Shown here one piece after another: positions 10,901 to 43,869 of a DNA stretch of 45,956 nt (its first letter is position 1; the number at the start of each line of letters is the position of its first letter). A program made the translations under genes and the position numbers. The notes under the pieces were generated by a model. That model searched no databases. It worked only from the letters and a program-made list of their open reading frames with translations, and was not told the origin of the DNA. The stretch comes from Bacilli bacterium (GTDB taxonomy: Bacteria; Bacillota_I; Bacilli_A; ML615J-28; CAG-313): contig JAGBDV010000005.1 in the NCBI GenBank assembly GCA_017937305.1, positions 1-45,956 on the forward strand. The letters run 5' to 3'.

Positions 10901-12821
10901 AATCAAATTCTACTGTACAATCATCATCAGCATACCAACCATTGAAATATGAACCATCTTTAAGTGGAGTTACATCTGGAGCTGTGATAGCAGCATCAGG
11001 TCTAACTAATAATTTATCAACAACAGTATCACCAGTATTAGCAAATTCTAATGTTACGCCTTCAGTATATTTTGCATAAATTGTAGTATCTGCAGTAATT
11101 CCTGTTGCAAAACTAAATACTTCTGTATATTCACTGTCTTTATACCAACCATCGAAGAAGTATCCGTCTTTTTCAGGATCAGCAGGTTTATTAATTTTTG
11201 CATTATTATAAACTTCTACTGAAGCGATTTCATTACCACCATTAGTATCAAATGATAATACTGATTTTGTATAGAATTCATCTGTAACAAATGTCATATT
11301 ACTAATTGTAGCAGTATCATCACCTTTATTTCCGCCAGAGTCTTTATTATATTGGAAATAAATAAAGTCTCCAGGAAGAACATCATAAGTGATTGTGTCT
11401 TCTTTTTCACCAGATGCTGTTACTCTTTCAGCATATGACCCATTTAATGAAGCATAAATATGTAGTTTATCCCAACCAGATTCAGAAGATACTTTATATG
11501 TAAATGTAAATGTACCACTATCAGTAAAGAATACATCCATATAAGCACCACTTGAACCTAAACCTTTATTATTAGATACAAATACACCATTATCTTCAGC
11601 ATCGACAAATGTATAACTTTCACGATAGTCTACATAGTAACCAGGTGTAGAATCATTTGTTCTTGTTATTACATAAGTAGGAACAGTTTCTGTGAAATTA
11701 GGAACTAAAATAACAGATTCACTAGTTACTGTATACGTTTCTTCATAAACACTACCACTTGCAGTATAACCATTAAATTGATAATTTTCTCTTTCAAGTT
11801 CTTCTAATTCAATTGTAGCACCAACTTTAACTAATTGAGGTTCAACAGCATAAACTTTATTATTATAGTTACCAACAAGAATATAGTCAGTATCCACTAA
11901 TGCAATAACATCACCTTCTGGTGCTAAATCTTTATTAAAGAAATATAATAAACTTAAAGCAAATTCTTCAAATAAATTTAAAGCAATATCATTAGTTTCA
12001 GCATTCTTTAATGCATTGATTTGTTCTACAGGTTTAACTGCATCAACATTTAATTCTAAGAACATATCAAGGATCCAACCCCATTTAGCACTAGTTGTTT
12101 CATTAGCAACAAAGAAATCATAAACATTTGTACCAGCACAATTTACATCACTTGCGTTAACAAGTGGAGTAGAACCATTAACTGCAGATGCTTTCCAAGT
12201 GTTAGCATCAAATTCTATAAATGAAGTATCATACGCTTTATTCCAATCAGCAACAAATAATTGTTCTAAATATTCAGGACGAGTTTCATAAGTTGCAGTA
12301 TCAACAAAAACATTTCCATTACAATCAGTATATGTTTTCATATAGTTAGTAGAAACATAATTAACAACGTTTTGAATAAAGCTACCAGTAACACTATTAC
12401 TAGCAGTCACTGCAACTTCAGCTAAATTTCTAACTACAACTTTTGAATATGAATAATTAGCACCATCATAAACATATGCAACAACACTAATATCTTGATG
12501 AGCAGCCGTCTTAGGGAAATTAACCATTGTAGCAGACATAACTGTGTTTTCTTCAGATACACCTTCAACAACTTGTTTAATTACACCAGGAGTAGCTACT
12601 GTAACTTCTGCAACTTCACCTTTTACAAATAAGAAACCATATTCATTAGTATCCTTATGGTTTACAACATTTGCAACCCATTTCATACCATTTAATCCAT
12701 CGGTTCTAATTTGTACACCATCTTCTATTTCAACTTTAGTAGGTTCACTAGCTTTAACAGCAATAAAACCTAATGATAAAACCATTAAAACAGTTAGTAA
12801 ACATAAAACTATTTTTTTCAT
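7923..12821 (-). CDS. Giant modular secreted protein with InlB-type repeats and PPC-like domains
   Basis: A 1632-residue exported protein; the signal peptide ends near FIAVKASE. Domains by rough residue: 25-390 unique N-terminal region with InlB-like fragments; ~394-517 a beta-sandwich; ~518-793 four InlB/Listeria-Bacteroides repeats (motifs GWYKDSEY, GWYADDDC, GWYTDQEF, GWYTDNTL, each closing on YAK or YAGW); ~797-923 a second copy of the beta-sandwich; ~925-1077 two more repeats; ~1078-1632 about five PPC-like sandwiches (ESGTYRIY, EAGETYYLVF, LEAGTYVIKV). No catalytic motif, LPXTG or C-terminal helix is seen, so it may be released or held non-covalently. It follows the 41-residue peptide gene, whose stop overlaps its GGAGG site. 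Probably an adhesin or glycan-binding protein; function inferred from architecture only. Confidence 0.9.
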   Translation of the reverse strand: MKKIVLCLLTVLMVLSLGFIAVKASEPTKVEIEDGVQIRTDGLNGMKWVANVVNHKDTNEYGFLFVKGEVAEVTVATPGVIKQVVEGVSEENTVMSATMVNFPKTAAHQDISVVAYVYDGANYSYSKVVVRNLAEVAVTASNSVTGSFIQNVVNYVSTNYMKTYTDCNGNVFVDTATYETRPEYLEQLFVADWNKAYDTSFIEFDANTWKASAVNGSTPLVNASDVNCAGTNVYDFFVANETTSAKWGWILDMFLELNVDAVKPVEQINALKNAETNDIALNLFEEFALSLLYFFNKDLAPEGDVIALVDTDYILVGNYNNKVYAVEPQLVKVGATIELEELERENYQFNGYTASGSVYEETYTVTSESVILVPNFTETVPTYVITRTNDSTPGYYVDYRESYTFVDAEDNGVFVSNNKGLGSSGAYMDVFFTDSGTFTFTYKVSSESGWDKLHIYASLNGSYAERVTASGEKEDTITYDVLPGDFIYFQYNKDSGGNKGDDTATISNMTFVTDEFYTKSVLSFDTNGGNEIASVEVYNNAKINKPADPEKDGYFFDGWYKDSEYTEVFSFATGITADTTIYAKYTEGVTLEFANTGDTVVDKLLVRPDAAITAPDVTPLKDGSYFNGWYADDDCTVEFDFAAGISKDTIIYAGWRTPVSVVFNSNGGTEVEDIYTDINVAITLPDEPTKANYVFDGWYTDQEFYTKFTGENGVTESTTVYAKWLKVVTVTYMYNEEEVGSETAVENDVFTPTTPDTFVALVLGWYTDNTLTIEFAANTVLTADDVILYAKVANFAPAGVLTSFVNGADGSYEWVCDDANGTFTSGNKGKNSSKSILEITFAKESFTAFSYVVNSESNYDYLTIYVNGNEVYSSKVSGKNGQDITGSFSETFAAGDVLKIQFQKDSSGNQGSDCAVLSNFVINDGVPAANITFKYQDAGVEDAVLNANLNDVIVNIEGFDTYAPVCDNVTKKFGGWYYDAECTKPLTNSDIIVSSIVLYAKYLYPVTVEFDTDGADEIDPISVWTGISIEEFMPETPTKHGYIFRYWLDEEAEEFNPANGVTGDILLTAYFEELPVGATKDVAVEVELENGEFSYNATTDEEFQDFYFVFTPEITDYYYFKFPVDDVNVVGGTVSGKYYRRFMIVDAEGNEVLGKTSSDSKVLLEAGNTYYAAYNLAYSSYTGWGTFKAEVCSYDYDCAAEAIDYTFGDVITTEPGVFKSSDHKIVYKFECTQSGTYALKLSTTAWAGVYVYSDEALSNQLLYKTCSNTSIAVDLVVEAGETYYLVFSQNWSGNTTKTFTFSVVEYPQGYDPNNPFEYTLGDVINAEFANGNNAYYQVEVAETGTYKLSILSISDTNSKTVDLYNADMTEKIATLAGTAACDYYVENLEAGTYVIKVYNTSTSYNTSFTASLTKVATGLYWTTAEELTLEAEMELNANGTYYYEFTTGTDVLWHFFEAELGTVKVYGLDRTEINTPAQLAANTVYYLVVESEEATLAVTFYTLVDYADGKSPAGAFTYTGEPMNLSLVQANYTTYIKFTVTESGTYRIYTNNNGSIDTKGYVYNDIACSSSISSNNDGYQAKVDAGFTGYKYDFYLECALETGVEYYVKVTYSIYSSNTATSLKLHIENTAA

Positions 12822-13238: not shown

Positions 13239-13931
13239 TTAAAAAAAATATAGTGATTTATAATTCTTAGGTGTAACGGGTATTGAAATCATAATTGTAT
13301 TATATATTCTTGCGTAATGAGCACAACAATTTCTTAGGTGTGTTAAACAGTATAGCCAAGAGGACAAGCAAGTAGAATTACTATTAAAAGTTCTTGCTAT
13401 TTCTTTTTGCAACTTTGTATCTAATTGTGAATACATTTTTGAAACATCACTAAAATCAAAAAATTCAATTATAACCCATAATGGAAATTTACCTTCATAT
13501 TTAGTCATATGATGAATCACAATTGGGTTCTTTTCATTTCTTTTTATATATTTATTTAAATTAGCTTGCAATATGTTCTCATCAAATTTATTATTATAAT
13601 TATTACTATCTAAATATCCAAGCGGTCCATATTTTAAAGAATGATAATATGCAATTCTTGTTTTAATTTCCACTTCTATATGTTCAATTACATAACTTAA
13701 CATATTTCTAAGTTTACGATCAAACAGATAATTTCTATATACTTTATTAAAAGAAGTCCCTTCTAAATATTTATTATCTGATTCTTTGAAAGGTAAAAAA
13801 TAAGAGGTCAATCTATAATAGTTAATATCGAGCAAAATACTATTTGTAAGTTCTTCATCTTCTATTATACAACCTCTTGTTTTTAATAATTCAATTTGTT
13901 AATCTATAGTTAAATGTTTTTTAACATCCAT
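13239..13931 (-). pseudogene. Abi_2 family (AbiD/AbiF-type HEPN) gene with in-frame stop and short C-terminus
   Basis: Abi_2 proteins are abortive-infection RNases with a HEPN fold. From ATG 13931 (GGGGG site five bases upstream) the frame reads MDVKKHLTID, then TAA at 13901-13899, then QIELLKTRGCIIEDEE, a canonical Abi_2 N-terminus (QIELLKSRG, then INYYRL). The frame stays open to 13239 with INYYRLTSYFLPF, KFPLWVIIEFFDF and the HEPN-like RNCCAHYARIYN (R-x4-H). Without read-through only an inner TTG (13835) would open the rest. The C-terminus stops soon after VTPKN at a poly-T/poly-A tract, short of the ~300 residues usual in the family. Two lesions suggest a decayed gene, though the promoter and leader remain. 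Confidence 0.8.
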
Positions 13932-16700: not shown

Positions 16701-16772
16701 GAGCAGGTGACGGGAATCGAACCCGCATAACCAGCTTGGAAGGCTGGGGTTCTGCCATTGAACTACACCTGC
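16699..16772 (-). tRNA. tRNA-Gly (TCC)
   Basis: Acceptor GCAGGTG/CACCTGC, D-arm, anticodon loop CTTCCAA (anticodon TCC), T-arm GCGGGTTCGATTCCCGT and an encoded CCA. Last gene of the tRNA operon; its CCA is the breakpoint of the direct repeat. Confidence 0.97.
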
Positions 16773-16778
16773 TTATAA

Positions 16779-16855
16779 TGGTCGGGACTGCAGGATTCGA
16801 ACCTGTGACCCTCTGGTCCCAAACCAGATGCTCTACCAAGCTGAGCTAAGTCCCG
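16779..16855 (-). tRNA. tRNA-Pro (TGG)
   Basis: Acceptor CGGGACT/AGTCCCG, anticodon loop TTTGGGA (anticodon TGG), T-arm ACAGGTTCGAATCCTGC and encoded CCA. Fourth in the operon, six bases before tRNA-Gly. Confidence 0.97.
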
Positions 16856-16876
16856 AAAATAATATATTAAATTTAA

Positions 16877-16953
16877 TGGCACGCCCGAGAGGATTCGAAC
16901 CCCCAACCCCTTGATCCGTAGTCAAGTATTCTATCCAATTGAACTACGGGCGC
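16877..16953 (-). tRNA. tRNA-Arg (ACG)
   Basis: Acceptor GCGCCCG/CGGGCGT, anticodon loop CTACGGA (anticodon ACG, expected to be edited to ICG), T-arm with GGTTCGAATCC and encoded CCA. Third in the operon. Confidence 0.97.
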
Positions 16954-16963
16954 ATTTTAAAAA

Positions 16964-17040
16964 TGGCGGTCCCAACGGGACTCGAACCCGCGATCTCCAG
17001 TGTGACAGACTGACATGTTAACCAACTACACCATAGGACC
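16964..17040 (-). tRNA. tRNA-Asp (GTC)
   Basis: Acceptor GGTCCTA/TGGGACC with one wobble, anticodon loop CTGTCAC (anticodon GTC), T-arm GCGGGTTCGAGTCCCGT, discriminator G and encoded CCA. Second in the operon. Confidence 0.96.
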
Positions 17041-17049
17041 AAGAAAATA

Positions 17050-17132
17050 TGGTGCGGGTGACAGGACTTGAACCTGCACTCGTAAGAACTAGATCCTAAG
17101 TCTAGCGCGTCTGCCAATTTCGCCACACCCGC
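17050..17132 (-). tRNA. tRNA-Leu (TAG)
   Basis: Acceptor GCGGGTG/CACCCGC, anticodon loop CTTAGGA (anticodon TAG), a long variable arm as in class II tRNAs, T-arm GCAGGTTCAAGTCCTGT and encoded CCA. First in the operon, about 25 bases after the likely transcription start. Confidence 0.97.
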
Positions 17133-21191: not shown

Positions 21192-21227
21192 AAAGCAAAA
21201 AGATTGTGAATTTAATCACAATCTTTT
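21192..21227 (-). terminator. Terminator after the alkaline-phosphatase-fold gene
   Basis: AAAAGATTGTGA (21198-21209) pairs with TCACAATCTTTT (21216-21227) around six bases; on the minus strand the 3' arm ends in U. The hairpin overlaps the stop codon of the gene. Confidence 0.88.
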
Positions 21228-22356
21228 ATTCTTCTATTTCTTCTTTTGGATCTTTGCGTTTTAATAAAATAACACAAGTTTCCATTTCTTCAGGAGTAAG
21301 TCCTGCATGATGAGCTTTAAATACTAAATCATTTTCTTTAATTTGTTCAGTGAAGTAATAACTACCTGTACCTACTGCAACAAAATCCCCTAAAGCATAT
21401 TCAATTATTTTATTTGGTGCATTTAATCCTGCCATTTGAGATTTAATAAATTCTTCCTTTGACATTAACATAAATGACTCATTAAAATATTTATTAAATA
21501 GTTCCTTAAACTCTTCTTGTTTTTCTTCTTTTACATAGAATTGTGCAAATCTTCCTTCTCCTGCAAATGGTTTAGTAAGACATTCCATAAAATCAGGGTA
21601 ATTAATAAGTTCTAAAGGTTCTACATCAATTAAACCATGATCAGCTGTAATTAAAACAATAGTTTCATTAGGGATTTCTTCTGCAAATTTATTTACAAGT
21701 TCTTCAATTTCTAAAAGTTTAACTTTAACGATTTGTGAAGTAGTTCCATATTCATGCATTAGAGTATCTGGTTCATCCCAATACATATATGTAAAATTAC
21801 TTTCTTCTTTATTACAAATTTCTTTTACTTGGTTAAATGCTTCACTTAAAGACGCAACACCATTTTCACCCCAACTAGGATAAATAGTATAATGTTTTGC
21901 ACGTTTAAGTTTGTTATACCAATAATCTCTTGGAATAATATCTTCAACTTTAAACTTATCAAAAGCTTCTTCTGTACTATTTATTTGATTCTTAAATAAT
22001 GTAATTGAAGGATCTACATTATTTAAATACAAATGCCAACCAAGCCAACCAGATTCAATTGGTGCAAGGCCTGTTGTAAATGTAGTTGTAGCTGCAACAG
22101 TTGTTGGAGGAAATACACTATTTAAGTTCATTACTTGATGAGTTTTTAAAATACTACCATTACTACAGTTTTTATCAATTATGTGACGCCCCATTCCATC
22201 AAGAACCATTAATACTACATGTTTATATTTCTTACTAAGTAAGAACTCTACAAGTGCACTTGGTTCATAATTTGTAGGGATATTGTAGTTTTTCATTAAA
22301 GCTGCAGTAAAGTTTGCAATACTATTCTTATAACTTACTAGTTGTTTCTTTGCCAT
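21226..22356 (-). CDS. Alkaline-phosphatase superfamily phosphodiesterase/nucleotide pyrophosphatase-type enzyme
   Basis: A 376-residue two-metal hydrolase of the type I phosphodiesterase/nucleotide pyrophosphatase family. Metal and nucleophile motifs occur in order: VVLMVLDGMG (Asp), FPPTTVAATTTFTTG (nucleophile Thr), WDEPDTLMHEYG (Asp and His), ITADHG (Asp-His) and AHHAGL (last His). No signal peptide, so it acts in the cytoplasm; the substrate cannot be told from sequence. It starts 15 bases after the upstream P-loop gene and shares its transcript. The same fold includes phosphonoacetate hydrolases and phosphoglycerate mutases, but the motif spacing fits the phosphodiesterase branch best. 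Confidence 0.85.
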   Translation of the reverse strand: MAKKQLVSYKNSIANFTAALMKNYNIPTNYEPSALVEFLLSKKYKHVVLMVLDGMGRHIIDKNCSNGSILKTHQVMNLNSVFPPTTVAATTTFTTGLAPIESGWLGWHLYLNNVDPSITLFKNQINSTEEAFDKFKVEDIIPRDYWYNKLKRAKHYTIYPSWGENGVASLSEAFNQVKEICNKEESNFTYMYWDEPDTLMHEYGTTSQIVKVKLLEIEELVNKFAEEIPNETIVLITADHGLIDVEPLELINYPDFMECLTKPFAGEGRFAQFYVKEEKQEEFKELFNKYFNESFMLMSKEEFIKSQMAGLNAPNKIIEYALGDFVAVGTGSYYFTEQIKENDLVFKAHHAGLTPEEMETCVILLKRKDPKEEIEE

Positions 22357-22987: not shown

Positions 22988-23024
22988 AGAAAAAACTCTT
23001 TAGTTAATAATCAACTAAAGAGTT
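22988..23024 (-). terminator. Terminator of the eight-gene lipid operon
   Basis: AACTCTTTAGTT (22994-23005) pairs with AACTAAAGAGTT (23013-23024) around seven bases; on the minus strand a U-rich tail follows. It lies five bases past the last gene. Confidence 0.93.
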
Positions 23025-23029
23025 AAATT

Positions 23030-23524
23030 TTAGTAGTAATACCCACCAAGATAAGGATCTTCACCGGCTTCAGCCATCATAATCATAAATACAACAGCCA
23101 TAATGAATAATAAAATCATACAAATAAGGTTAACTACAAAACCAAATACAGCTTTACCATGATTCTTAATACTCTTCTTTCCAATAATTGAGAAAACAAA
23201 TCCAGGAACAGCAAATTCAATACCAAATAATGATAAGATATATGCAAGTGCAGGAATTTCTGAACTAACAAATGCTAAGAATGTAAGTGATAAGTTAACG
23301 ATACCAAAAATCATCCCTAGTGTTGCAAATACTTTAAATACTGCTTTTTCTTTAAATTGATAAGTACCTGTAGAAGGATTTTCATTTACATATGTAGTGC
23401 CATTATTATCAATAACTTCTACATTTTCAACTTGTTCTTTTTCTACTTGAACTTGTGAGCCACAATATGGACAAAAAACAGTCCCATCTAATAATTCTAC
23501 GCCACAGCCTTTACATTTAGCCAT
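23030..23524 (-). CDS. Zinc-ribbon membrane protein (DUF4190-like)
   Basis: A 164-residue protein. The N-terminal zinc ribbon is CKGCGVELLDG followed by VFCPYCGSQ (two CxxC knuckles, residues ~4-22). A charged linker leads to three or four membrane segments (residues ~65-155: FATLGMIFGIVNLSL, IPALAYILSLFGIE, FGFVVNLICMILLF). The tail is acidic and tyrosine-rich (EDPYLGGYYY). The class is common in Firmicutes and has no assigned biochemical role; it may scaffold membrane enzymes. It is the last gene of the lipid operon, 11 bases after the LRAT gene. Confidence 0.8.
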   Translation of the reverse strand: MAKCKGCGVELLDGTVFCPYCGSQVQVEKEQVENVEVIDNNGTTYVNENPSTGTYQFKEKAVFKVFATLGMIFGIVNLSLTFLAFVSSEIPALAYILSLFGIEFAVPGFVFSIIGKKSIKNHGKAVFGFVVNLICMILLFIMAVVFMIMMAEAGEDPYLGGYYY

Positions 23525-23535
23525 AATATTTCCTC

Positions 23536-23946
23536 CTATTTTTTATTTAATAAATTCTTAATTTTTTCATGAATATTATCCACTTGTTTACTTTCTTTAA
23601 TACCGAAAACACAAAAGTTAGCAAAGTGTTCACAATTATTATATAACAAATTATAATCGCCTTCACCAATTTTGCTCAAGGCACGTTCAATAATTAAATC
23701 ATTACTAAATTTTTTCTTTAATTCTTTTTTAGTATAAATTCTTACCTCAAGAAAACCTCCATTTAAGAAGTCTTCAACTTTAGATTTCATAACTTTAATT
23801 AATGAATGGTCTTGATACATATCAAAAGGGTGCCCAAATTCTACAACTTCATCATTACCTATATATATACCATGATGATAATATCCATTTGATAATACTC
23901 TAATATGATCCCCAGGAATAGGATCTATCATTTTCCAAGTTTCCAT
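23536..23946 (-). CDS. LRAT/NlpC-P60-fold acyltransferase-like protein
   Basis: A 136-residue protein with the permuted papain fold of lecithin:retinol acyltransferase (LRAT) and H-rev107. PGDHIRVLSNGYYHHGIYIG gives the catalytic His and NNCEHFANFCVFG the catalytic Cys in the diagnostic NCEHF motif. Family members form a thioester with an acyl chain and pass it to an alcohol or amine, or act as phospholipase A1/2. No signal peptide or membrane helix. Its ATG overlaps the acyl carrier gene stop by one base (TAATG), so the two are coupled. That neighbour makes an acyl-transfer role more likely than a peptidase role. Confidence 0.85.
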   Translation of the reverse strand: METWKMIDPIPGDHIRVLSNGYYHHGIYIGNDEVVEFGHPFDMYQDHSLIKVMKSKVEDFLNGGFLEVRIYTKKELKKKFSNDLIIERALSKIGEGDYNLLYNNCEHFANFCVFGIKESKQVDNIHEKIKNLLNKK

Positions 23947-24191
23947 TATTTTTTAGCCTTAATATAATGTACTACATCACCAACAGTTTCAAAAGAATTA
24001 AATGTAGCATCACTCATGTCAATACCAAATTGTTCTTCTATTGCAACCATTAAATAAATTAACCCTACACTAGATACACCTAAATCACTTATTATTTTAG
24101 CATCTAATGTCATATTATTAACATCAGCACTTCGATTAATAACTAATGTAAAAATCTTTTTTAATTGTTCTAATATTTCTAATTCTGTCAT
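23946..24191 (-). CDS. Acyl carrier protein (divergent attachment motif)
   Basis: An 81-residue acyl carrier protein: four-helix size, acidic, with LGVSSVGLIYLMVAIEEQF where canonical ACPs have GxDSLxxxE. The phosphopantetheine serine (second Ser of GVSS, about residue 41) is kept, but the preceding Asp is Ser and the following Leu is Val. It is probably not the housekeeping fatty-acid ACP but a dedicated carrier loaded by the ligase encoded just upstream (gap one base). It overlaps the LRAT-fold gene by one base. Confidence 0.88.
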   Translation of the reverse strand: MTELEILEQLKKIFTLVINRSADVNNMTLDAKIISDLGVSSVGLIYLMVAIEEQFGIDMSDATFNSFETVGDVVHYIKAKK

Positions 24192-24192
24192 T

Positions 24193-25716
24193 TTATAAAG
24201 CCTTTCTTGGTCTTATTATTTTCATACTTGGACTTCTTGGAAAATCTGTAGTTCTAATTACTACTTTTTGAATTTGTTCATAATCAAATAATGTTTTATT
24301 AACTTCGCTAATTAATTCTTCAACATACCCTTGTACATCTGTAATACCTTTAGGACCAAGTACTGCAGGTCTTAATATAACTTCAGCTTGAAGAATCTCA
24401 GCACCAAATTCATTAGTTTCTAATGTAACTAAGCTATCTTGAATAACATCTAAACTATTAATTTTATCTTCAATATAAGCAGGCGAAACATTTTCACCAT
24501 TTGATAAAACAATGATATCTTTAATACGCCCAATAATATATAAGAAACCATCCTCATCAAGTCTTACTAAATCACCAGTTTTAAACCAACCATCAACAAA
24601 TGCTGTTTTGTTTTCTTCTGGTTCATTATAGTATCCATCTAATAGATTATCGCCTTTAATCCAAAGTTCTGAATCAACAATTTTAATTTCTTGATTAGGA
24701 TATAAATAACCTACAGATGTTGGTTTCTTTAATCCTTCAGGATTTCCACTTACTAAGTTAGCAGTTTCTGTTAAACCATATCCTGGAAGTAGTGTTACAC
24801 CAAATTTAGGAAATTCTTCTACTAAATATGGAGGAACACTTGCACCACCACAAATAATTGTTTTTAAATTTCCACCTAAGAAACCAAGTCCAAATTGTTT
24901 TGTTAGATTTAAGAAAATTTCTGCTAAGGCTGGAACAACAATTAAAATCGTTGGTTTAACCTCTTTAATTTCTTTAAACATTGTTCTTTTATCTAAGCAA
25001 AAATAAATTGTACTACCTGTATATAAAGATGTAAGAAGATTTCTAATTAAACCAAATACATGTGTAAGAGGCATAATTGAATAATATATATCATTAAATA
25101 CTTTTTCTATTCCAAATGTACCATTTAATGTTCCAGTCATTACAGCTTTGTGGGATAATATTGCGCCCTTACTTTTTCCTGTTGTACCACCAGTTAAAAC
25201 TATACATGCAGGATCAGTTTCTTTAATATCATAATTATATTCTTTTTCTTCTACATTATATTCAGCAATCTCAATAAACTTAACCATTGGAGCCATTTTT
25301 TTTGCAAATTCTATTTTTTCAGCAATGCTTTTTTCATAGAATAAACAAGTAAGTTGGTATTTCATGCAGCAACCAAAGATTGTTTTTTCATCAAGTTGAA
25401 CAGGTAAAAGTGTTGCAACAGCACCATATGCCATTACACCAAGAGCAGTTTTAACAAAATCATAATTATTGTTACAAATCACTCCCACATTAGATTTAAA
25501 TGGTATTTGTTCATTTGATATAACTTGATTAGTCTTTTTTACATCGCTAATTAATTCTTTGTATGTAACGTTTTTTAAAGAACTTCCTACTGCAACTAAA
25601 TCTTGATATTGTTCTTCTATTTTATCTAAAAATAAAGGAATTGTCTTATCAATCTTAAGTTTACTAAAAGTTTCTTTATCTGTATATTTTTCAAAATAAT
25701 TCTTTGTGATTAACAT
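24193..25716 (-). CDS. AMP-forming acyl ligase (acyl-CoA/acyl-ACP synthetase type)
   Basis: Activates a carboxylate as acyl-AMP and passes it to a thiol. The ANL-family signature is complete: IVLTGGTTGKSKGAILSHKA (P-loop), LLPGYGLTE, WFKTGDLVRLDEDGFLYIIGR (hinge Asp), GENVSPAYIE and a C-terminal Lys in SPSMKI. About 507 residues from ATG 25716, which has an AGAGAG-type site; the TTG at 25740 overlaps the previous gene and is less likely. It lies between a PlsC gene and an acyl carrier gene, so acyl-ACP synthetase, as in the ligase half of E. coli Aas, is the favoured role. The chain specificity is unknown. Confidence 0.9.
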   Translation of the reverse strand: MLITKNYFEKYTDKETFSKLKIDKTIPLFLDKIEEQYQDLVAVGSSLKNVTYKELISDVKKTNQVISNEQIPFKSNVGVICNNNYDFVKTALGVMAYGAVATLLPVQLDEKTIFGCCMKYQLTCLFYEKSIAEKIEFAKKMAPMVKFIEIAEYNVEEKEYNYDIKETDPACIVLTGGTTGKSKGAILSHKAVMTGTLNGTFGIEKVFNDIYYSIMPLTHVFGLIRNLLTSLYTGSTIYFCLDKRTMFKEIKEVKPTILIVVPALAEIFLNLTKQFGLGFLGGNLKTIICGGASVPPYLVEEFPKFGVTLLPGYGLTETANLVSGNPEGLKKPTSVGYLYPNQEIKIVDSELWIKGDNLLDGYYNEPEENKTAFVDGWFKTGDLVRLDEDGFLYIIGRIKDIIVLSNGENVSPAYIEDKINSLDVIQDSLVTLETNEFGAEILQAEVILRPAVLGPKGITDVQGYVEELISEVNKTLFDYEQIQKVVIRTTDFPRSPSMKIIRPRKAL

Positions 25717-25729
25717 ATAATCTCTCTTT

Positions 25730-26386
25730 CTATTTTTCAATTACTTTTTTTAATTCTAGTTCTTGATTTTCTAAAAACTTAGTAACTTCATCAATTTCTT
25801 CAATAGTTGGAATCTTTGATTTTATAAGTTCTTTTACATTAATTTTATCACTAATTACAACTTGTTGTCTTTGCCACCAGTGACTCTTTTTATGAATATA
25901 AATTTGGATAATTGGAACATCACATAATGTTGCAAACATTACAGCACCAGATTTATAGTGATCGTTACTATCTTTTGTTTGAATATGACCTTCTGGGAAA
26001 ATTCCTACTAAGTGTCCATGATTAATCACATCTTGAACATTTTTAAATGTTTGCATTGAAACATTTTGTTTATTTATTTTAATACATCTTATTGCATTAA
26101 AGAAAAAACTTCTAATCTTAGTACTATATAAATCTTCTGTTGCTACAAAACTTGTTCTTCTATTCCATGTTGCAACCATTACAATTATTGGGTCAATATA
26201 TGTAGCATGATTACTAACAATAATTGCTGGTTCTTTTAGTAATCCTTTTTGTTTTCTTCCATTTAAATAATGTTTTTTTAGTCTTAAATAAATTATGGCA
26301 GGAAGAGCACCTGTAACTTTTACAAAATCATATGGAAAGTATCTATAATCAAATATTTTATTAAATTTACTAATTTTCTTTTTCAT
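25730..26386 (-). CDS. PlsC-type 1-acylglycerophosphate acyltransferase (second copy)
   Basis: Membrane-associated acyltransferase of the PlsC/LPLAT family. The HX4D catalytic motif is SNHATYIDP near residue 57 and the acceptor-binding motif is FPEGHI near 133. An N-terminal hydrophobic stretch (VKVTGALPAIIYLRL) mirrors that of the upstream paralog. ATG 26386 overlaps the end of the upstream PlsC gene; a TTG three bases before gives one extra residue. It lies directly before the ligase, the order seen within the E. coli Aas fusion (acyltransferase then ligase). Confidence 0.92.
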   Translation of the reverse strand: MKKKISKFNKIFDYRYFPYDFVKVTGALPAIIYLRLKKHYLNGRKQKGLLKEPAIIVSNHATYIDPIIVMVATWNRRTSFVATEDLYSTKIRSFFFNAIRCIKINKQNVSMQTFKNVQDVINHGHLVGIFPEGHIQTKDSNDHYKSGAVMFATLCDVPIIQIYIHKKSHWWQRQQVVISDKINVKELIKSKIPTIEEIDEVTKFLENQELELKKVIEK

Positions 26387-27005
26387 CAATCATTTTCCCC
26401 AAATCTTTGATATAAGATCTAACATAATTGCAAATGTAATCTATATTTTCTTTTTCTGTCTTACTACTATCATATAAGTCTTGCGCATAAATTGCTTCAC
26501 CAATAATTACTTTAGCACGTTTTTTACATGCATAACTACCATTAGTATATAAAGGTATTATTGGAGAACCAGATTCTAAAGCAAGATATACAAAGCTAGG
26601 TTTAAATTCAAGTAAACCAGTTTCTTCTTTTAAAGGAAGGCGTCCTTCAGGAAATATTTCTATAACTTTACCTTTATTAAGTAGATCAATACATTTACTT
26701 AAAAAACCAAAATCATAATTATCTCTTTCAACTTTTATTCCTCCAATTTTCTTTAGAAACCATCCAAATAATTTCCTTTTATTAAACATTACTTCACCAA
26801 TTACAGTATAAATATCTCGACTAAAGAATAAATACATGTTTAATACAAAGTCAAATAATCTTTTATGATTAGATACTATGATCGCACTACCTTTAATTTT
26901 TCTTGAAGTAACTTTTTTATTTACATAGTAAACTTTTTTTCTAAAGTAAAATATTTGAGGAATAAAGCCAGTTAACTTAACAAACCATAATACTATTTTT
27001 GACAT
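26370..27005 (-). CDS. PlsC-type acyltransferase (first copy)
   Basis: A second LPLAT-family protein of 211 residues. HX4D is SNHKRLFDF (residues ~45-53) and the acceptor motif is IFPEGRLP (~118). Its N-terminus (VLWFVKLTGFIPQIFYFRKKVYYVNKKV) resembles the PlsC encoded next, so the pair probably arose by duplication and then diverged around the active site. It overlaps the transporter gene upstream and the second PlsC downstream. Two acyltransferases side by side could act on the two glycerol positions or on different lysolipids. Confidence 0.9.
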   Translation of the reverse strand: MSKIVLWFVKLTGFIPQIFYFRKKVYYVNKKVTSRKIKGSAIIVSNHKRLFDFVLNMYLFFSRDIYTVIGEVMFNKRKLFGWFLKKIGGIKVERDNYDFGFLSKCIDLLNKGKVIEIFPEGRLPLKEETGLLEFKPSFVYLALESGSPIIPLYTNGSYACKKRAKVIIGEAIYAQDLYDSSKTEKENIDYICNYVRSYIKDLGKMIDEKEN

Positions 27006-28882
27006 TCTAGATCCTTAAGTAAACTATTTAGTTCTTTTTGCATAATAATTAAAGATACAATATTTAAACAACATAAACCTAATATTAAATGAAGTACACT
27101 TAAATCTTTTACATTATGTCCAAAACTTCTTTGCTTTTCGACTATTTTTTTATTTAACTTATATGCAGTAATTCCATAATAGAATGGGATTAATAATCCA
27201 ATAATAAAATGAAGCACTTTATTTTTTACTTTATCAAATTTATCAACACTATTAATTACTAAATATTGCCAAATAGCACCAAATATTGAACCAGATAATA
27301 CCCAAAGGGCAATATTAACTAAAATACTTTCTTCTTCATACAATGTTATTTTTTCTTGTGGGAATAAATCTTTATTTTCATTATACTCTTTTTCTAAACC
27401 AATTTCTTTTGCAACTTCTTCTGGTGAATAATGTTTTGGCATTTTAAATGCTAAGATAAATCCAAGTACACAAAATACTGAAACAATAACAGGAACAAGT
27501 AATGTACCTAAATTATAAACATTGTTTAGATTAGTATGAAGCATAAATGAAGCATCAACAGCATTTTCAGCCCATACAACATCTAAATTTTTATTAATAA
27601 AGAACATTTTAATATTTTCATATACAAGTGAACTTGCTATTGCACTAACAATACTCGTTGTAAAAGCTTGAGCAGCAAAATACATTGCAGAATGGTTTTT
27701 ACCAGTTAGTTTTTCTTCAACACTAGATATTTGAGCAGGAATTAAATAAGGCATCATAAAGAATGAACCAATTGCCCATGAACCAATTACACCACCAATA
27801 CATCCAATAATCATTTGAAGAGTTACATTATCTTCACCCATAAAAATTGTATTATTAATTACAAATGTTAAAATACAAATAGCAAATGAAAGCAAACATG
27901 TTTGATATGCAAATCTTAATCCTTTTCTAGCTTTTAGTTTATTAAATAAATATAACATTAAAGGTACAGGAGCAAAAGCACAAGTATTTAAAATTGCCAT
28001 TTGTGTTCCGTTCATTCCCATGCCTCCTGATATTAGTGCATTCATCGCAACTAAGAACATTTGAAGTCCAAAGAATGAACAACAGTTTACTGCACACCAT
28101 CTAAGGAATGGTTTATTTGTAAATGTTAATTTAATGCTTTCAAAAATACCAACTTTTTCTTCTTCTGCAAGTGGTGTAATATCATAACCTTCTTTAATAG
28201 CCTTAGCTTCAAATTTATCACCTTCTTTAATCATAAATAAAGGAATTAGCATTGTAGCCATTAAAGGTAGTAAAATTATTGCAAACTTATCAACATGAAT
28301 CTTAAAGACATCTAGAAGAAGTGGTACAAGTGCATAAACTAAACAATATGTAATAGTATCAAAGAATGATTTAAAACTAGATACTCTTAATCTTTGATTA
28401 TCTGTTGCACAAACTTGTGATAAACTACCATAGAATGAAATTAAGCTCATTGTATATGTTGAGAAAAATACTAAAGCCCAAGATACAATCCAAATTGTAT
28501 TACCAAGTTGATGAGTAGCACCTTCACCAAAAATAGGGATCCAGCAAAACATATAAGCAAGTGTCATTGGAATAAAACATACTGCAATCGGTGGACGACG
28601 TTTACCCCATTTAGTTTTTAGGTTATCTGTAAGTGCTGCAAGAGGAATATCTACTACTCCATCAAATATCTTTGACAAAGCCCAAAGTAATGGGAAAATA
28701 GCAGGTAAAATAAAACATGCACCACTAATAGCTTGATAACTTCCTTCTGGAAGCGCTGCTGGGTTTATTGCATCAGTAAAAAACGCACCCATCAAAATCA
28801 TTAAAAGATTGGGACCAAATCCAGATGCTGCAAACAATATCTCTTTCCATTTTTTATCTAATGTTACGAATTTTTTCTTCAT
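26993..28882 (-). CDS. GPH-family MFS transporter with C-terminal membrane extension
   Basis: A 629-residue multi-helix transporter of the glycoside-pentoside-hexuronide (GPH) branch of the major facilitator family. Residues ~1-480 carry 12 helices; the family-type loops DIPLAALTDNLKTKWGKRRPP (Asp and basic residues between helices 2 and 3) and SSFKSFFDTITYCLVY are visible. Residues ~510-620 add three or four more helices (NIALWVLSGSIFGAIW, VLHFIIGLLIPFYYGI), similar to a DUF4234-type domain. GPH members are mostly sugar symporters, but the vertebrate member MFSD2A carries lysophosphatidylcholine. Sitting between an acyl ligase and two PlsC genes, a lysolipid or fatty-acid substrate is a fair inference, not proof. 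Confidence 0.82.
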   Translation of the reverse strand: MKKKFVTLDKKWKEILFAASGFGPNLLMILMGAFFTDAINPAALPEGSYQAISGACFILPAIFPLLWALSKIFDGVVDIPLAALTDNLKTKWGKRRPPIAVCFIPMTLAYMFCWIPIFGEGATHQLGNTIWIVSWALVFFSTYTMSLISFYGSLSQVCATDNQRLRVSSFKSFFDTITYCLVYALVPLLLDVFKIHVDKFAIILLPLMATMLIPLFMIKEGDKFEAKAIKEGYDITPLAEEEKVGIFESIKLTFTNKPFLRWCAVNCCSFFGLQMFLVAMNALISGGMGMNGTQMAILNTCAFAPVPLMLYLFNKLKARKGLRFAYQTCLLSFAICILTFVINNTIFMGEDNVTLQMIIGCIGGVIGSWAIGSFFMMPYLIPAQISSVEEKLTGKNHSAMYFAAQAFTTSIVSAIASSLVYENIKMFFINKNLDVVWAENAVDASFMLHTNLNNVYNLGTLLVPVIVSVFCVLGFILAFKMPKHYSPEEVAKEIGLEKEYNENKDLFPQEKITLYEEESILVNIALWVLSGSIFGAIWQYLVINSVDKFDKVKNKVLHFIIGLLIPFYYGITAYKLNKKIVEKQRSFGHNVKDLSVLHLILGLCCLNIVSLIIMQKELNSLLKDLECQK

Positions 28883-28893
28883 ATAAAACTCCT

Positions 28894-30831
28894 TTAATTA
28901 ATTTTTCCAACAATATAGTTCGAAAATTGTAATACAGTATAGAAAGGTTCTATATTATTATTAAATTTAATATCATATTTTTCTTCTAATTTAACAAGTA
29001 AAGTTAAATAATCTAGACTTGTTCCTCCAAGATCTAAAATAACGTGCGCATTAATATCAATATCATCATTTGAGTTTAACAACTCTTTAAATACCGTTTT
29101 AACTTCTTCAATTATTTTTAATGTCACTTCATTAATATCTTCTAATTCTATTACTTTTAATTCACTAAATGGATGTAGCTTTACAACACCTTCATTAATC
29201 CATTTTGTTAATAGTTTTCTAGATACTTTAACTGCAGTTAAAGAAATTATTCTATCAAATGTATAATATACTTTATCAATATTATAATTATTAGCTCTTA
29301 AATTATCAAGTACATCTTTAACTTCTTTATTTATCTGATTAATTCTAATTTCACTTAAAGAGTTATTTAACTCTAAAACTAATGATAAATAACTTAAATT
29401 ATTTTCTTCAAGACCAAGAAGAGAGAATCTTTCAACACTAGGTAAATTAATAATAGCTTCAATAACATCAGGATTAATCTTTTCTCCACTTGAAGTAAGT
29501 ACTACATCATCAGTTCTTCCATCAATAATATAGTTACCCTTTTTATCTTTTCTTACTACATCAAAGGTATTAAAATATTCACTATGATTAATGTCAGCTA
29601 CACTATCTTTTGTTATTATCGTTTTACATATTCCATCACTTTTTACAAGTAATTGATTATCTTCATTAATTTTATACTCAACAGTTTCAAAAGGTAACCC
29701 TATAAATCTTTTGATTCTCGTATTTGCATTATAAGAAAGTTCAACAGAAGTAATTCCTATTTCTGTCATTCCATAACCATTAAATAAAGGATAACCAATT
29801 CCATTAATAACGTATGAAGCATGATAAGATAAATAACTACCACCACTTATCATAAATTGAACGCTTTCACCAAATACTTTAGCTCTAACTTCCTTAAATA
29901 GCTTTTTAGTTATTTTAAGTCCTAATCTTGGAAATATAGATTGCAACTTATTTGATAGTTTTAAACCTTTATAAAATTTATTTATCGTCTTTTCATCTTG
30001 TTTATTTATTTCTCTAATAAGCGTTTTATGAACAGTATGCCATAGCATTGGAACTGCAAATATATGTGTTACTTCATGTTTTTTTATTGTTCTAATTATT
30101 GTATCACTACTTAAATCTTTTAAAAACACAAAACATCTTCCGAAAAATGCGAACCAAAAATAAGATGCCATTAACCCAAAGATATGATAAAATGGTAAAA
30201 AAGCAAGTTGTTTTAAATAACCATGATAATGATTTTTTATAATTTTATTTCTTTTACAAATTAAATCTGAATTAGTAATTTGTGTACAAATAGCTTTTCC
30301 ATCATAAATACAAATTTTAACATTTAAACTAGTAGCTGAAGTACATAATGCTATTTCATTAGCCCAAATAAATTCATCTTTATTGAAACTTTTGATACTA
30401 TCATAATCAAAATTAGACACATTAATTTTATTTCCAACTACATCATAATCATTATCACATACAATATCTTTAATTTGTAATCTTTCAATAATTTGATTAA
30501 CTAGACTACTTCCAAGTCTCACATTTAGTAAGACAGGTTTTTTATTATTCATCAAGATTCCATATAAAGAAGTTATAAATTCTAAACTGTTTTCCATCAT
30601 TAGTCCAACATATTCAGAATTATCACTTAATAATCCCTTTAAATACGTTGCCATTTTATAAGAATATATATAGCATTCGTTATATGTTGTCTTTTTAATT
30701 CTAAATCCATCAGTTTTTTCACAGAAAATTAAATCTTTTTCACTATGAATAATCTCAAAGATTGATTTAAAATCATAATTTGAATTTTTTAATAAATTTA
30801 ATCTAGTTGTTATTATTTTATTAACATTCAT
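28894..30831 (-). CDS. AMP-ligase fused to an acyl/peptidyl carrier domain, degenerate P-loop
   Basis: First gene of the lipid operon. Residues ~15-545 are an ANL-family adenylation domain (LPFYHIFGLMAS, FNGYGMTEIGI, IDGRTDDVVLTSSGEKINPDV, a C-terminal Lys in TAVKVSRK). Residues ~565-645 are a carrier domain with LDLGGTSLDYLTLLVKLEEKY, whose GGTSL serine is the phosphopantetheine site. The usual P-loop TSGTTGxPKG is replaced by CTSATSLNVKICIYDG, so the domain may adenylate poorly or differently. ATG 30831 has a GGGAAGA site and follows a strong promoter. It probably supplies an acyl group held on its own carrier arm to the downstream transferases. Confidence 0.85.
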   Translation of the reverse strand: MNVNKIITTRLNLLKNSNYDFKSIFEIIHSEKDLIFCEKTDGFRIKKTTYNECYIYSYKMATYLKGLLSDNSEYVGLMMENSLEFITSLYGILMNNKKPVLLNVRLGSSLVNQIIERLQIKDIVCDNDYDVVGNKINVSNFDYDSIKSFNKDEFIWANEIALCTSATSLNVKICIYDGKAICTQITNSDLICKRNKIIKNHYHGYLKQLAFLPFYHIFGLMASYFWFAFFGRCFVFLKDLSSDTIIRTIKKHEVTHIFAVPMLWHTVHKTLIREINKQDEKTINKFYKGLKLSNKLQSIFPRLGLKITKKLFKEVRAKVFGESVQFMISGGSYLSYHASYVINGIGYPLFNGYGMTEIGITSVELSYNANTRIKRFIGLPFETVEYKINEDNQLLVKSDGICKTIITKDSVADINHSEYFNTFDVVRKDKKGNYIIDGRTDDVVLTSSGEKINPDVIEAIINLPSVERFSLLGLEENNLSYLSLVLELNNSLSEIRINQINKEVKDVLDNLRANNYNIDKVYYTFDRIISLTAVKVSRKLLTKWINEGVVKLHPFSELKVIELEDINEVTLKIIEEVKTVFKELLNSNDDIDINAHVILDLGGTSLDYLTLLVKLEEKYDIKFNNNIEPFYTVLQFSNYIVGKIN

Positions 30832-30864
30832 AATATCTTCCCAAATTTAAACACATTTTTATAT

Positions 30865-30893
30865 ATTATACCACTTTTAAAATTTATATTCAA
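30865..30893 (-). promoter_or_regulatory. Promoter of the lipid operon
   Basis: TTGAAT (30893-30888), 17 bases, TGG-TATAAT (30870-30865) on the minus strand, about 30 bases before the first ATG. With the terminator at 22988-23024 it frames a single ~7.9-kb transcript; no inner terminator is seen and the gaps are at most 11 bases. Confidence 0.9.
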
Positions 30894-30904: not shown

Positions 30905-30938
30905 GAAAATAAGGTTTAGAGCATGATCTCTAAACCTT
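30905..30938 (-). terminator. Terminator of pheST
   Basis: AAGGTTTAGAG (30911-30921) pairs with CTCTAAACCTT (30928-30938) around six bases, with a U-rich tail on the minus strand, six bases after the pheT stop. Confidence 0.92.
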
Positions 30939-30943
30939 ATAAA

Positions 30944-34403: not shown

Positions 34404-34650
34404 ATAAAAAAATGCACCCTTAGTCTAAGGACGCATTAAAATTACGTGGTACCACCTTAGTTTATAATAAAAACTTATTATACACTCATTAAACCTTTTA
34501 ACGCTAGTCATGCGGGCTTGATTAGAACCACTCATAAGGCGAACACTTCTATAATCTTTACATTTAAAGCTTTCAGTCCATGGCTTTAATCCCTAATAAG
34601 AAAGAATTATATACTTTTCCTTAATCAACGCATTTATTATTTATTTACTT
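34404..34650 (-). promoter_or_regulatory. T-box riboswitch, Phe specifier, upstream of pheS
   Basis: The minus-strand leader carries the T-box core GGTGGTACCACG (34456-34445) and a terminator ATGCGTCCTTAG/CTAAGGGTGCAT followed by U. In Stem I the base TTGATTA/TAATCAA closes a specifier loop with GAGTGG-TTC, so UUC (Phe; 34527-34525) is read. Uncharged tRNA-Phe should stabilise the antiterminator and allow pheST transcription. Confidence 0.93.
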
Positions 34651-38735: not shown

Positions 38736-38967
38736 ATAAATAAATTAGATGAAGAGAAATAGTAAATAAGAATAATTCATTTAGGGAGCCTTAGATAGTG
38801 AAACGAGGTATGACATTTTCTTATTGAATGGATCTTGGATAAGATATGAGGAAATGCATATCCGTTAGATAAGCGTTAATTTCATAATGAGGAAAGATAT
38901 TTATCTTTTGAATTTTAGGTGGTACCACGACTAGTTCGTCCTAATACTTAGGGGAACTAGTTTTTTT
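38736..38967 (+). promoter_or_regulatory. T-box riboswitch, Trp specifier, upstream of trpS
   Basis: The T-box core GGTGGTACCACG is at 38918-38929 and the terminator ACTAGTTC/GAACTAGT with a T-run ends at 38967. In Stem I an AATAAGAA/TTCTTATT helix leads to GAA-TGG, so the specifier is UGG (Trp; 38829-38831), opposite an AGTA loop-E-like element. Uncharged tRNA-Trp should switch on trpS. Confidence 0.93.
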
Positions 38968-41675: not shown

Positions 41676-42808
41676 TAAATTTCACCTCTAATTAAAGGAT
41701 TAGTAATATTTCCTAAAATACACTTACGAGAAGCACCTGTAACTTTAGGAACATTTGTAGGTATTCCTTTTAATGTATAATATCCTAAAATTGCAAAGCT
41801 TAATGCTTCTAATGCTTCATAATTATTTTCTTTTTCTACTTTACATGGAAGTTTTTGCAATAAACGTTCCATAATAAATTCATTAAATACCCCACCACCT
41901 GATACAATAACTCTATCAATATGTGGTAAGAATTTTTCATAAGAGAAAATAATGCAATCTGCAGTATAAGCAGCAAGTGTTGCAATAATATCACTATCAG
42001 ATCCACCTAAACCTCTTACTTTAATAATTATTTCTGAAAGGTAAGCTTCACTATATTTTTCACGACCAGTACTTTTTGGAGCTTTTTGATGTAAATATGG
42101 CTCATTCATAAGTTCTTGTAAAACTTCATCAACAACATGACCACGTTTTGCGATTTTACCACAATCATCAAAATCTTTTCTAAATAGTCTACGCATTGCA
42201 GCATCAATTAAAATATTACCGGGACCAGTGTCAAATGCAATAACATCTTTTAATTCACCAGCTTTTTTAAGATAAGTAACATTAGAAATGCCACCAATAT
42301 TTTGAAGTGCAATACTTTCTTTTTTATTTGAATATAAAACATAGTTTGCAAAAGGAACTAAAGGTGCTCCACTTCCTCCACAAGCCATATCCATTGTTCT
42401 AAAGTTACTAATAACTTTCACATCAAATGCAGCTGCTAAAACGCTAGGATCCCCAAGTTGTAAAGTTGAAGATTCATAATTATCTTTACCATCAGGATTA
42501 TGCCATACAGTTTGTCCATGCATCGCAATAAACTCTATCTCAGAAGATTTAACTTTAGAATCTTTTAATAATTTTTTAACAGCTTTAACATAAGCTTTAC
42601 TAATCTCAACATTTAAACTACATATTGTTTGAATATTACAAGGTTTGTTTGAGGAAACATTTAATATTCTTTGTTTTAATTCTTTTTCATAAGGCACGTA
42701 AGTAAAATGAACAATATTAAACTTACTATTCTTACCTTTTTTTATATCAACTAAACAAGCATCTACACCATCTAATGATGTACCACTCATAATACCTATT
42801 GCTAGCAT
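41675..42808 (-). CDS. anmK: Anhydro-N-acetylmuramic acid kinase
   Basis: Hydrolyses the 1,6-anhydro ring of anhydro-MurNAc and phosphorylates it to MurNAc-6-phosphate, the MurQ substrate. ASKHA-fold kinase of 377 residues: GIMSGTSLDGVDACLVDI (phosphate loop), IAMHGQTVWHNP, LQNIGGISNVTYL, IAFDTGPGNILIDAAM and VIVSGGGVFNEF. It implies that anhydro-sugars, the products of lytic transglycosylases, reach this cell. Eighteen bases after mupG. Confidence 0.97.
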   Translation of the reverse strand: MLAIGIMSGTSLDGVDACLVDIKKGKNSKFNIVHFTYVPYEKELKQRILNVSSNKPCNIQTICSLNVEISKAYVKAVKKLLKDSKVKSSEIEFIAMHGQTVWHNPDGKDNYESSTLQLGDPSVLAAAFDVKVISNFRTMDMACGGSGAPLVPFANYVLYSNKKESIALQNIGGISNVTYLKKAGELKDVIAFDTGPGNILIDAAMRRLFRKDFDDCGKIAKRGHVVDEVLQELMNEPYLHQKAPKSTGREKYSEAYLSEIIIKVRGLGGSDSDIIATLAAYTADCIIFSYEKFLPHIDRVIVSGGGVFNEFIMERLLQKLPCKVEKENNYEALEALSFAILGYYTLKGIPTNVPKVTGASRKCILGNITNPLIRGEI

Positions 42809-42826
42809 GAATTCACCCCTTCTTTC

Positions 42827-43855
42827 TTATTTTATAAATTTAAATCTTTTACCTTCTTTTATATGATTGATAATTACATCTGTCGCAGCAAGACTACCAA
42901 TTACATTAACTCTTTCATCTTTTGGCAAATCTTGTAATACAATGTTGATTTCACCCACATATCGCTTAAATTTTGAATTATCTAAGGTAACATCATATCT
43001 TTTTCTGTCAACTGTATTAAAACTTAAAATTTCTTCACTACTTCTTAAAGATGAGACTCTTAATATATAATTATTTAGATCAGGTCTAATTTTAAATGAT
43101 TTATCGAATAAATAATCATAATTATCATTTGAATCAATTAGTCTTAATTTTAGTAGTATTTCCTCACAATTATGCATATTTAAGATACTAATTTCTTCAG
43201 TGCTTGCATAAGCATCTCCAAAATATATCCCATTAATACCACAAGCTTTTAATTCTTCAATCGCTACATCTAAGCACATCTTACGATGAGCTTCTACAGT
43301 TGGTAATCCTTCATACATTGGAGGTCTAAAACCAATATGTGAAGGAATAAATGCACCCACGTATATTCCAACTTCATTACAAATTTTAGTCTTATTATAT
43401 ACATCAATAATATCATGACCTGTATATAACTTAGGATAAAAATTAAAAGTAAATCTTGTACGTGTTGTATTAATACCATTATCAATTAAACTTTTAATGT
43501 GTTCATATGATAATGTTGATGCATTAAGTTCAACATAATATGATGCAGTATTACTTAAATGAATAATTTCTTCATCAGTAAACCCATAATCAAGTCTAAG
43601 CGCAAATAAGCCATCAAATTCTCTTAATTTACTCATTATCGGCTTAGATACATCTAAACTTAATTTAAGGCCTAATTTATTACATTCATCAATGATACTT
43701 TGTAATTCCTCTTGTGATGTCTTAGCTTCATTAATATGAGCAGAACTAAATACATGTGTGCAACCTAACTGTTTTGCAAGATGTAAATATTTAATATTTT
43801 CTTCTTTGGAATAGTCACTAAGTCCTGCATATACACTTACACCAGTATCAATCAT
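42827..43855 (-). CDS. mupG: MupG-type 6-phospho-N-acetylmuramidase (DUF871)
   Basis: A DUF871-family protein, known from Staphylococcus aureus MupG to split MurNAc-6-phosphate-GlcNAc taken up by a PTS. TIM-barrel start TGVSVYAGLSDYSKEENIKYLHLAKQLGCTHVF, FTFNFYPKLYTG, GFRPPMYEGLPTVEAHR and GINGIYFGDAYAS, then a smaller C-terminal domain (FKIRPDLNNYILRVSS). Its 342 residues are typical. No MurP-type PTS permease lies in the window to supply its phosphorylated substrate. Confidence 0.9.
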   Translation of the reverse strand: MIDTGVSVYAGLSDYSKEENIKYLHLAKQLGCTHVFSSAHINEAKTSQEELQSIIDECNKLGLKLSLDVSKPIMSKLREFDGLFALRLDYGFTDEEIIHLSNTASYYVELNASTLSYEHIKSLIDNGINTTRTRFTFNFYPKLYTGHDIIDVYNKTKICNEVGIYVGAFIPSHIGFRPPMYEGLPTVEAHRKMCLDVAIEELKACGINGIYFGDAYASTEEISILNMHNCEEILLKLRLIDSNDNYDYLFDKSFKIRPDLNNYILRVSSLRSSEEILSFNTVDRKRYDVTLDNSKFKRYVGEINIVLQDLPKDERVNVIGSLAATDVIINHIKEGKRFKFIK

Positions 43856-43869
43856 GTAATCACCACTTT

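Follow-up and report, generated by a model that had tools for sequence, protein, structure and literature searches.

MFSD2A is the omega-3 lipid importer of the human brain, and FakAB is the system with which Gram-positive bacteria activate external fatty acids. In Escherichia coli, LplT flips lysolipids, and Aas makes acyl-acyl carrier protein (acyl-ACP) and carries out the reacylation (PMC11416262). Here we describe an operon of eight codirectional genes in a 45,956-nucleotide stretch (hereafter the window) of the genome of an uncultured gut bacterium (Bacilli bacterium, assembly GCA_017937305.1, contig JAGBDV010000005.1), in which a transporter of the GPH family stands among adenylating enzymes, acyl carriers, and acyltransferases. 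A lipid role for this operon is well supported by its genomic context, and we narrowly favor its interpretation as a lipid acquisition and reacylation operon in bacteria apparently unable to make fatty acids.

Results

The operon lies on the minus strand, from position 30831 down to 23030, and comprises the genes A, T, P1, P2, L, C, R, and Z, in that order. All eight genes listed in the first-pass annotation were confirmed with the Pfam domains claimed for them, each above its curated cutoff: AMP-binding plus PP-binding, MFS_2, Acyltransferase twice, AMP-binding, PP-binding, LRAT, and a zinc ribbon. The genes do almost all overlap or lie within 11 bases of each other, as had been described, the seven junctions measuring, in order, +11, -13, -20, -11, +1, -1, and +11 bp (from a 20-bp overlap to an 11-bp gap). 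The eight-gene operon is real. Of the single promoter and single terminator first proposed to frame it, the terminator fared better: terminator-like sites exceed those of shuffled sequences (6 versus 2.2 +/- 1.5), and a hairpin with a T tract closes the operon at 22994 to 23024 (minus strand, hairpin scan), while another at 30909 to 30940 (minus strand) belongs to the upstream pheT and isolates the operon from it. The best-scoring promoter-like site of the consensus scan upstream of gene A, TTGAAT-17-TATAAT with an extended -10 (TG) at 30865 to 30893 on the minus strand, is argued for by its position, because such matches are not commoner in this AT-rich region than in shuffles (62 found versus 75.5 expected). 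A flanking kinase-like gene was considered as a part of the operon and rejected since it lies beyond the terminator. The same decision was taken for a type I phosphodiesterase/nucleotide pyrophosphatase gene (21226 to 22356), which also lies beyond the terminator and adjoins pheT in an operon-less relative; it adjoins the operon in the window, and a phosphodiester could be its substrate.

The search for this gene order in related genomes, as the first-pass annotation had suggested, found it conserved in several lineages and in unrelated contexts. The core order A-T-P1-P2-L-C-R is kept in the genus of the window and at four further loci (L006, L007, L039, and L012), with differing flanking genes. 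Two loci of the same genus (L003 and L004) share with the window the entire operon and its site, their T proteins being 86 to 87% identical to that of the window; identity falls to 62 to 65% in L006, L007, and L039 and to about 50% in L012, which is a metagenome-assembled genome (MAG) of the Clostridia. Directly after the core, an Sfp-like phosphopantetheinyl transferase (PPTase) gene is found in three loci, namely, L006, L007, and L039. Another genome of the same genus (G013) presents an empty site, in which the phosphodiesterase gene follows pheT within 85 bp and no operon is found. The operon therefore behaves as a separate unit with a patchy distribution. Elsewhere the gene set is rearranged, with P1 and P2 fused (L010 and L011), or the adenylation-carrier protein is fused to two PlsC domains and adjoins T (L009), and these two fusions tie activation to the acyltransferases. 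The initial proposal that the roles are carried by separate genes is accurate for the window but does not hold generally, since L009 unites adenylation, carrier, and two PlsC domains in one protein. In a phylum-wide sample of 392 genomes, the T branch was found at an E value of <= 1e-60 only in the order of the window; it is also present in named MAGs that are labeled otherwise.

Gene T (26993 to 28882, minus strand) encodes a 629-amino-acid (aa) GPH/MFS_2 transporter with a 12-helix core and about 3 extra C-terminal helices, as first annotated: the family assignment is given by Pfam MFS_2 (E value of 8.8e-32; 110.6 bits versus a cutoff of 27), with a weak NCBIfam gph match below its cutoff, and the extra helices are present in the AlphaFold model (mean predicted local distance difference test score, pLDDT, of 78) at residues ~516 to 549, 555 to 586, and 595 to 628. 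In a Foldseek search with this model, MFSD2A came first (E value of 6.6e-10) and MelB next (1.7e-8). The likeness to MFSD2A suggested at the outset is compatible with this search, in which MFSD2A is just ahead of MelB, but it is not proven by it, the TM-scores of the two overlapping. A mixed sequence profile of E. coli GPH proteins and FakAB-linked transporters reached both MelB and MFSD2A in the PDB. BLASTP detected no similarity between T and E. coli LplT (best E value of 2.6).

The residues of T were compared in an alignment of thirteen T-branch members with five E. coli GPH proteins as the reference. The cation site is kept, with T residues D74, D78, and T144 corresponding to D55, D59, and T121 of MelB (the Asp pair of helix II and the Thr of helix IV) and invariant in 17 sequences, and T is probably cation coupled. 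The galactoside residues Asp19, Asp124, Trp128, Lys18, and Arg149 of MelB are replaced in T by N, L, Y, P, and S, respectively (MAFFT), the column of R149 being loosely aligned with a Lys nearby. The position of Asp124 is occupied by Leu or Met in 13/13 T-branch members versus Asp or Asn in 5/5 E. coli GPH members. According to a structural study of MelB, conservation of the galactoside residues is limited to MelB orthologues, while the cation site is general, MFSD2A included (PMC8329300). At the level of this alignment, a melibiose-type sugar site in T is excluded. In the tree, the T branch stands apart from the five E. coli glycoside-type GPH proteins, with a warning for long branches. Altogether, T is not placed firmly among the sugar symporters with their sugar residues and the gene order is conserved among relatives, so that neither of the two outcomes named beforehand as fatal to a lipid reading was observed.

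The evidence that weighs most comes from beyond the window. A second transporter of the T branch, 32 to 34% identical, is found in the same genome inside a fatty-acid-kinase cluster, a FakB-FakA-GPH-PlsC-alpha/beta hydrolase-PlsC-like run (L020, 5301 to 12220 of contig C2), and similar clusters occur in L021, L040, L041, and L042, those of the other genomes of the order (L040 to L042) reading PlsC-FakB-FakA-hydrolase-GPH. A hybrid cluster in genome G034 (L043, 1110 to 9614) brings together an L-type ligase, a 321-aa LRAT protein, an alpha/beta hydrolase, FakB, the GPH transporter, FakA, and a hydrolase. The ketoacyl-ACP synthase domain PF00109 is present in 14/14 controls, whereas it is absent from 13/15 genomes of the family and gives a marginal match in one of the remaining two; the genomes lacking it include a 97%-complete carrier of the operon from the same genus. 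It is also absent from 10/10 transporter carriers found in the order, and FabH-type matches are missing or marginal in genomes of the lineage. Nearly all of these lineage genomes carry PlsX, PlsY, and FakA. The operon-bearing lineage therefore probably depends on outside fatty acids, as the ketoacyl synthase is mostly missing while PlsX, PlsY, and FakA are kept.

Gene A (28894 to 30831, minus strand) encodes a 645-aa protein with an adenylation domain (AMP-binding, 1.7e-27) and a C-terminal acyl-carrier domain (PP-binding, 8e-6), in which the carrier Ser605 and the catalytic Lys535 and Arg538 are invariant among the loci compared. Its P-loop has diverged in most loci, reading TSATSLNVK in the genus of the window and TSGTSGKSK, nearer the canonical form, in L009. 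The protein has the features of the adenylation-carrier didomains of nonribosomal peptide synthetases (NRPS), i.e., the adenylation fold, the carrier Ser, and the catalytic Lys, and in Foldseek its structure model resembles NRPS adenylation-peptidyl carrier protein (A-PCP) didomains; the attempt to name its substrate from these matches was dropped, as they are generic A-PCP matches. Gene L (24193 to 25740, minus strand; AMP-binding, 9.6e-52) encodes a fatty-acyl AMP ligase that is a candidate acyl-ACP synthetase; in agreement with L003 and L004, its probable start is ATG 25716, giving 507 aa, and not the TTG at 25740. Its adenylation signature is complete (P-loop TGGTTGKSKG, GYGLTE, TGDL, and the A10 Lys), and the acyl-ACP synthetase 8hsy is among its PDB matches; it shares 28% identity with the synthetase half of Aas (E value of 2e-27), many other adenylating enzymes scoring equally or better. 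Gene C (23946 to 24191, minus strand; PP-binding, 1.6e-10) encodes a free-standing acyl carrier protein of 81 aa with the carrier-serine motif DLGVSS.

Genes P1 (26370 to 27005, minus strand; 211 aa; PF01553, 2.3e-21) and P2 (25730 to 26389, minus strand; 219 aa; PF01553, 7.4e-20) encode PlsC-family acyltransferases, in which the HX4D motif and the Glu of FPEG are invariant, relatives included; P2 is 26% identical to the acyltransferase half of Aas. Gene R (23536 to 23946, minus strand; LRAT, 1.5e-24) encodes a 136-aa LRAT/PLAAT-like Cys-His acyltransferase that matches the structure of human PLAAT3 (4dot, E value of 2.9e-7), with invariant H24 and C105 (NCEHF) corresponding to the catalytic His and Cys of LRAT/PLAAT enzymes. 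The second active-site His is not conserved: at this PLAAT3 position the protein of the window has E, and relatives have Q, H, or E. A literature search for LRAT-ACP operons returned nothing matching. The 164-aa zinc-ribbon membrane protein of gene Z (23030 to 23524, minus strand; Zn_Ribbon_1, 1.8e-6) was recognized, besides the window, only in L003 and L004, and we regard it as a genus-specific accessory because its place in L006, L007, and L039 is taken by the PPTase gene.

Elsewhere in the window, two T-box leaders were found, one upstream of pheS (34424 to 34637, minus strand) and the other upstream of a class I W/Y-type tRNA synthetase gene (38740 to 38946, plus strand). AnmK and NamZ genes (41678 to 45036) form a cluster for the salvage of muropeptides and N-acetylmuramic acid. 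A 1,632-aa protein with Listeria-Bacteroides (Flg_new) repeats (7923 to 12821) is probably a large surface protein, and an abortive-infection-like protein of the Abi_2 family is encoded at 13239 to 13835, near a tRNA cluster (16702 to 17132).

Discussion

Lipid acquisition and reacylation is the reading that we hold slightly better than evenly balanced against all others, based on the gene content and order, the catalytic motifs, the behavior of the operon as a cassette, the FakA-linked relative of T, and the absence of ketoacyl synthases. We propose a model in which T would import a partly deacylated lipid, either a lysophospholipid or a glycerophosphodiester such as glycerophosphocholine (GPC), across the membrane or into its inner leaflet. 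Gene product A would activate a scavenged fatty acid onto its own fused carrier and L would load another onto the free ACP, and P1 and P2 would then move these chains onto the free hydroxyls of the acceptor that T has brought in. The PLAAT-like R could trim or trans-acylate lipids, hence supplying acceptors or adjusting chains, and the PPTase, where present, would activate the carriers. In this model, we infer the direction of transport, the substrate, the use of a fatty acid by A, the pairing of PlsC enzymes with carriers, and the role of R.

Several observations weigh against this model. Foldseek does not decide whether T is kin to MFSD2A or to MelB, given their overlapping TM-scores, and searches of the PDB by sequence gave no matches either with T alone or with the profile of its family. 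The loss of the MelB sugar residues is not indicative of a lipid substrate because GPH members that carry other substrates commonly share it. Gene product A, with its generic A-PCP fold and diverged P-loop, may not activate a fatty acid at all, and a dedicated PPTase together with a fused carrier would also suit a biosynthetic cluster. The association of the operon with the absence of ketoacyl synthases is statistically weak (p of ~0.05, calculated by hand, ignoring phylogeny and with several genomes incomplete), as few genomes are involved and these are related to each other. The operon would not be needed for basic phospholipid synthesis because FakA, PlsX, and PlsY are in any case present in the host.

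The main rival is a biosynthetic role, which sequence alone does not tell apart from lysolipid scavenging. The same genes could make an unusual acylated lipid or a fatty-acid amide, which might also be exported: A and L would load acyl or amino-acyl groups onto the carriers, PlsC and LRAT enzymes would build an O- and N-acylated product, and T would export this product or import its head group. PLAAT-type enzymes can act as N-acyltransferases. The carriers and the PPTase are a reasonable argument for such a role: two carriers, a fused adenylation-carrier protein, and, in three relatives, a PPTase look like a small cluster of the NRPS type. Moreover, fatty-acid amides are produced in gut bacteria by a free adenylation enzyme, an ACP, and a condensation enzyme (PMC13142362). 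However, the Pfam results of the operon proteins include no condensation domain, and the related transporter travels with the FakA/FakB scavenging system, including in the L043 hybrid. Characterized GPH members, for their part, are mostly importers, and we consider such a biosynthetic role rather unlikely.

A more specific version of acquisition and reacylation, which we judge improbable, would be a GPC-type pathway in which T imports a water-soluble glycerophosphodiester that P1 and then P2 acylate, each with its own acyl-carrier, to phosphatidylcholine (PC) or a similar lipid. It would account for the number of PlsC proteins, ligases, and carriers, which is exactly two in each case, and small polar solutes are the usual cargo of GPH transporters. 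Mitis-group streptococci make PC in this manner, with transporters and acyltransferases that are unidentified there (PMC6805115). Against it, PlsC-family enzymes normally acylate the second position, no feature of T marks a phosphodiester site, and the alpha/beta hydrolases in the clusters of the related transporter better fit imported acylated lipids. An ordinary GPH sugar symporter, present in a lipid operon by chance or moving the sugar head group of a glycolipid, would agree with the Pfam MFS_2 assignment, the weak gph match, and a fold equally close to those of MelB and MFSD2A. Such a symporter is nevertheless very improbable given that T adjoins PlsC and adenylating genes across lineages, branches separately from the glycoside-type proteins of E. 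coli, and has Leu or Met at the position 124 where all five E. coli members have Asp or Asn, in a core without any glycosidase or glycosyltransferase.

Extending the favored reading of lipid acquisition and reacylation, we tentatively suggest, with somewhat less than even confidence, that gut Bacillota auxotrophic for fatty acids take up lysophospholipids through an undescribed bacterial branch of GPH transporters, which would supply either a FakA-type cluster or the two-carrier operon and would be a functional counterpart of both MFSD2A and LplT-Aas with an origin independent of LplT. In streptococcal work, the importers of lysophosphatidylcholine (lysoPC) and GPC of Gram-positive bacteria are unidentified (PMC6805115), and the operon and its FakAB-linked relative provide named candidates for this import in apparently fatty-acid-auxotrophic gut bacteria. 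They may account for the construction of membranes out of host or dietary lipids in such bacteria, and the T branch would make bacterial relatives available for asking how lipids became the cargo of a fold of sugar symporters.

Among known systems, MFSD2A and the GPH (MFS_2) proteins share with T the Pfam-type family, the Asp pair and Thr of the cation site, and the best Foldseek matches, whereas identity to MFSD2A is about 12%, T has its extra C-terminal helices, and MelB is equally close in TM-score. The FakAB-PlsX system of Gram-positive bacteria has the same inferred purpose, is present in the same genome, and is linked there to a related transporter, but it activates fatty acids by phosphorylation, whereas the operon would do so by adenylation onto carriers. 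The GPC pathway of mitis-group streptococci and Xanthomonas likewise acylates scavenged GPC or lysoPC to PC by acyltransferases, its genes being largely unidentified whereas a dedicated operon is present here. The OaaA-OaaACP-OaaC fatty-acid amide clusters of gut bacteria share a free-standing adenylation enzyme and an ACP with the operon, which has PlsC and LRAT enzymes and a transporter in place of a condensation domain. Unlike LplT-Aas, the operon is found in uncultured Bacillota without ketoacyl synthases, and it has a transporter not similar to LplT, two acyltransferases, two ligases, dedicated carriers, and an LRAT enzyme, the PlsC and synthetase functions being unfused in the window. 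The first-pass annotation of a split LplT-Aas system hence stands for a probable functional likeness but is not supported for descent, as T shows no similarity to LplT and the likeness of the ligase and PlsC proteins to Aas is only generic. As in E. coli, nonetheless, an MFS transporter, PlsC, and a candidate acyl-ACP synthetase are united in one operon and, as in Aas, a single protein of L009 combines activation with acyltransfer, so that the operon is best read as resembling LplT-Aas in function rather than by descent.

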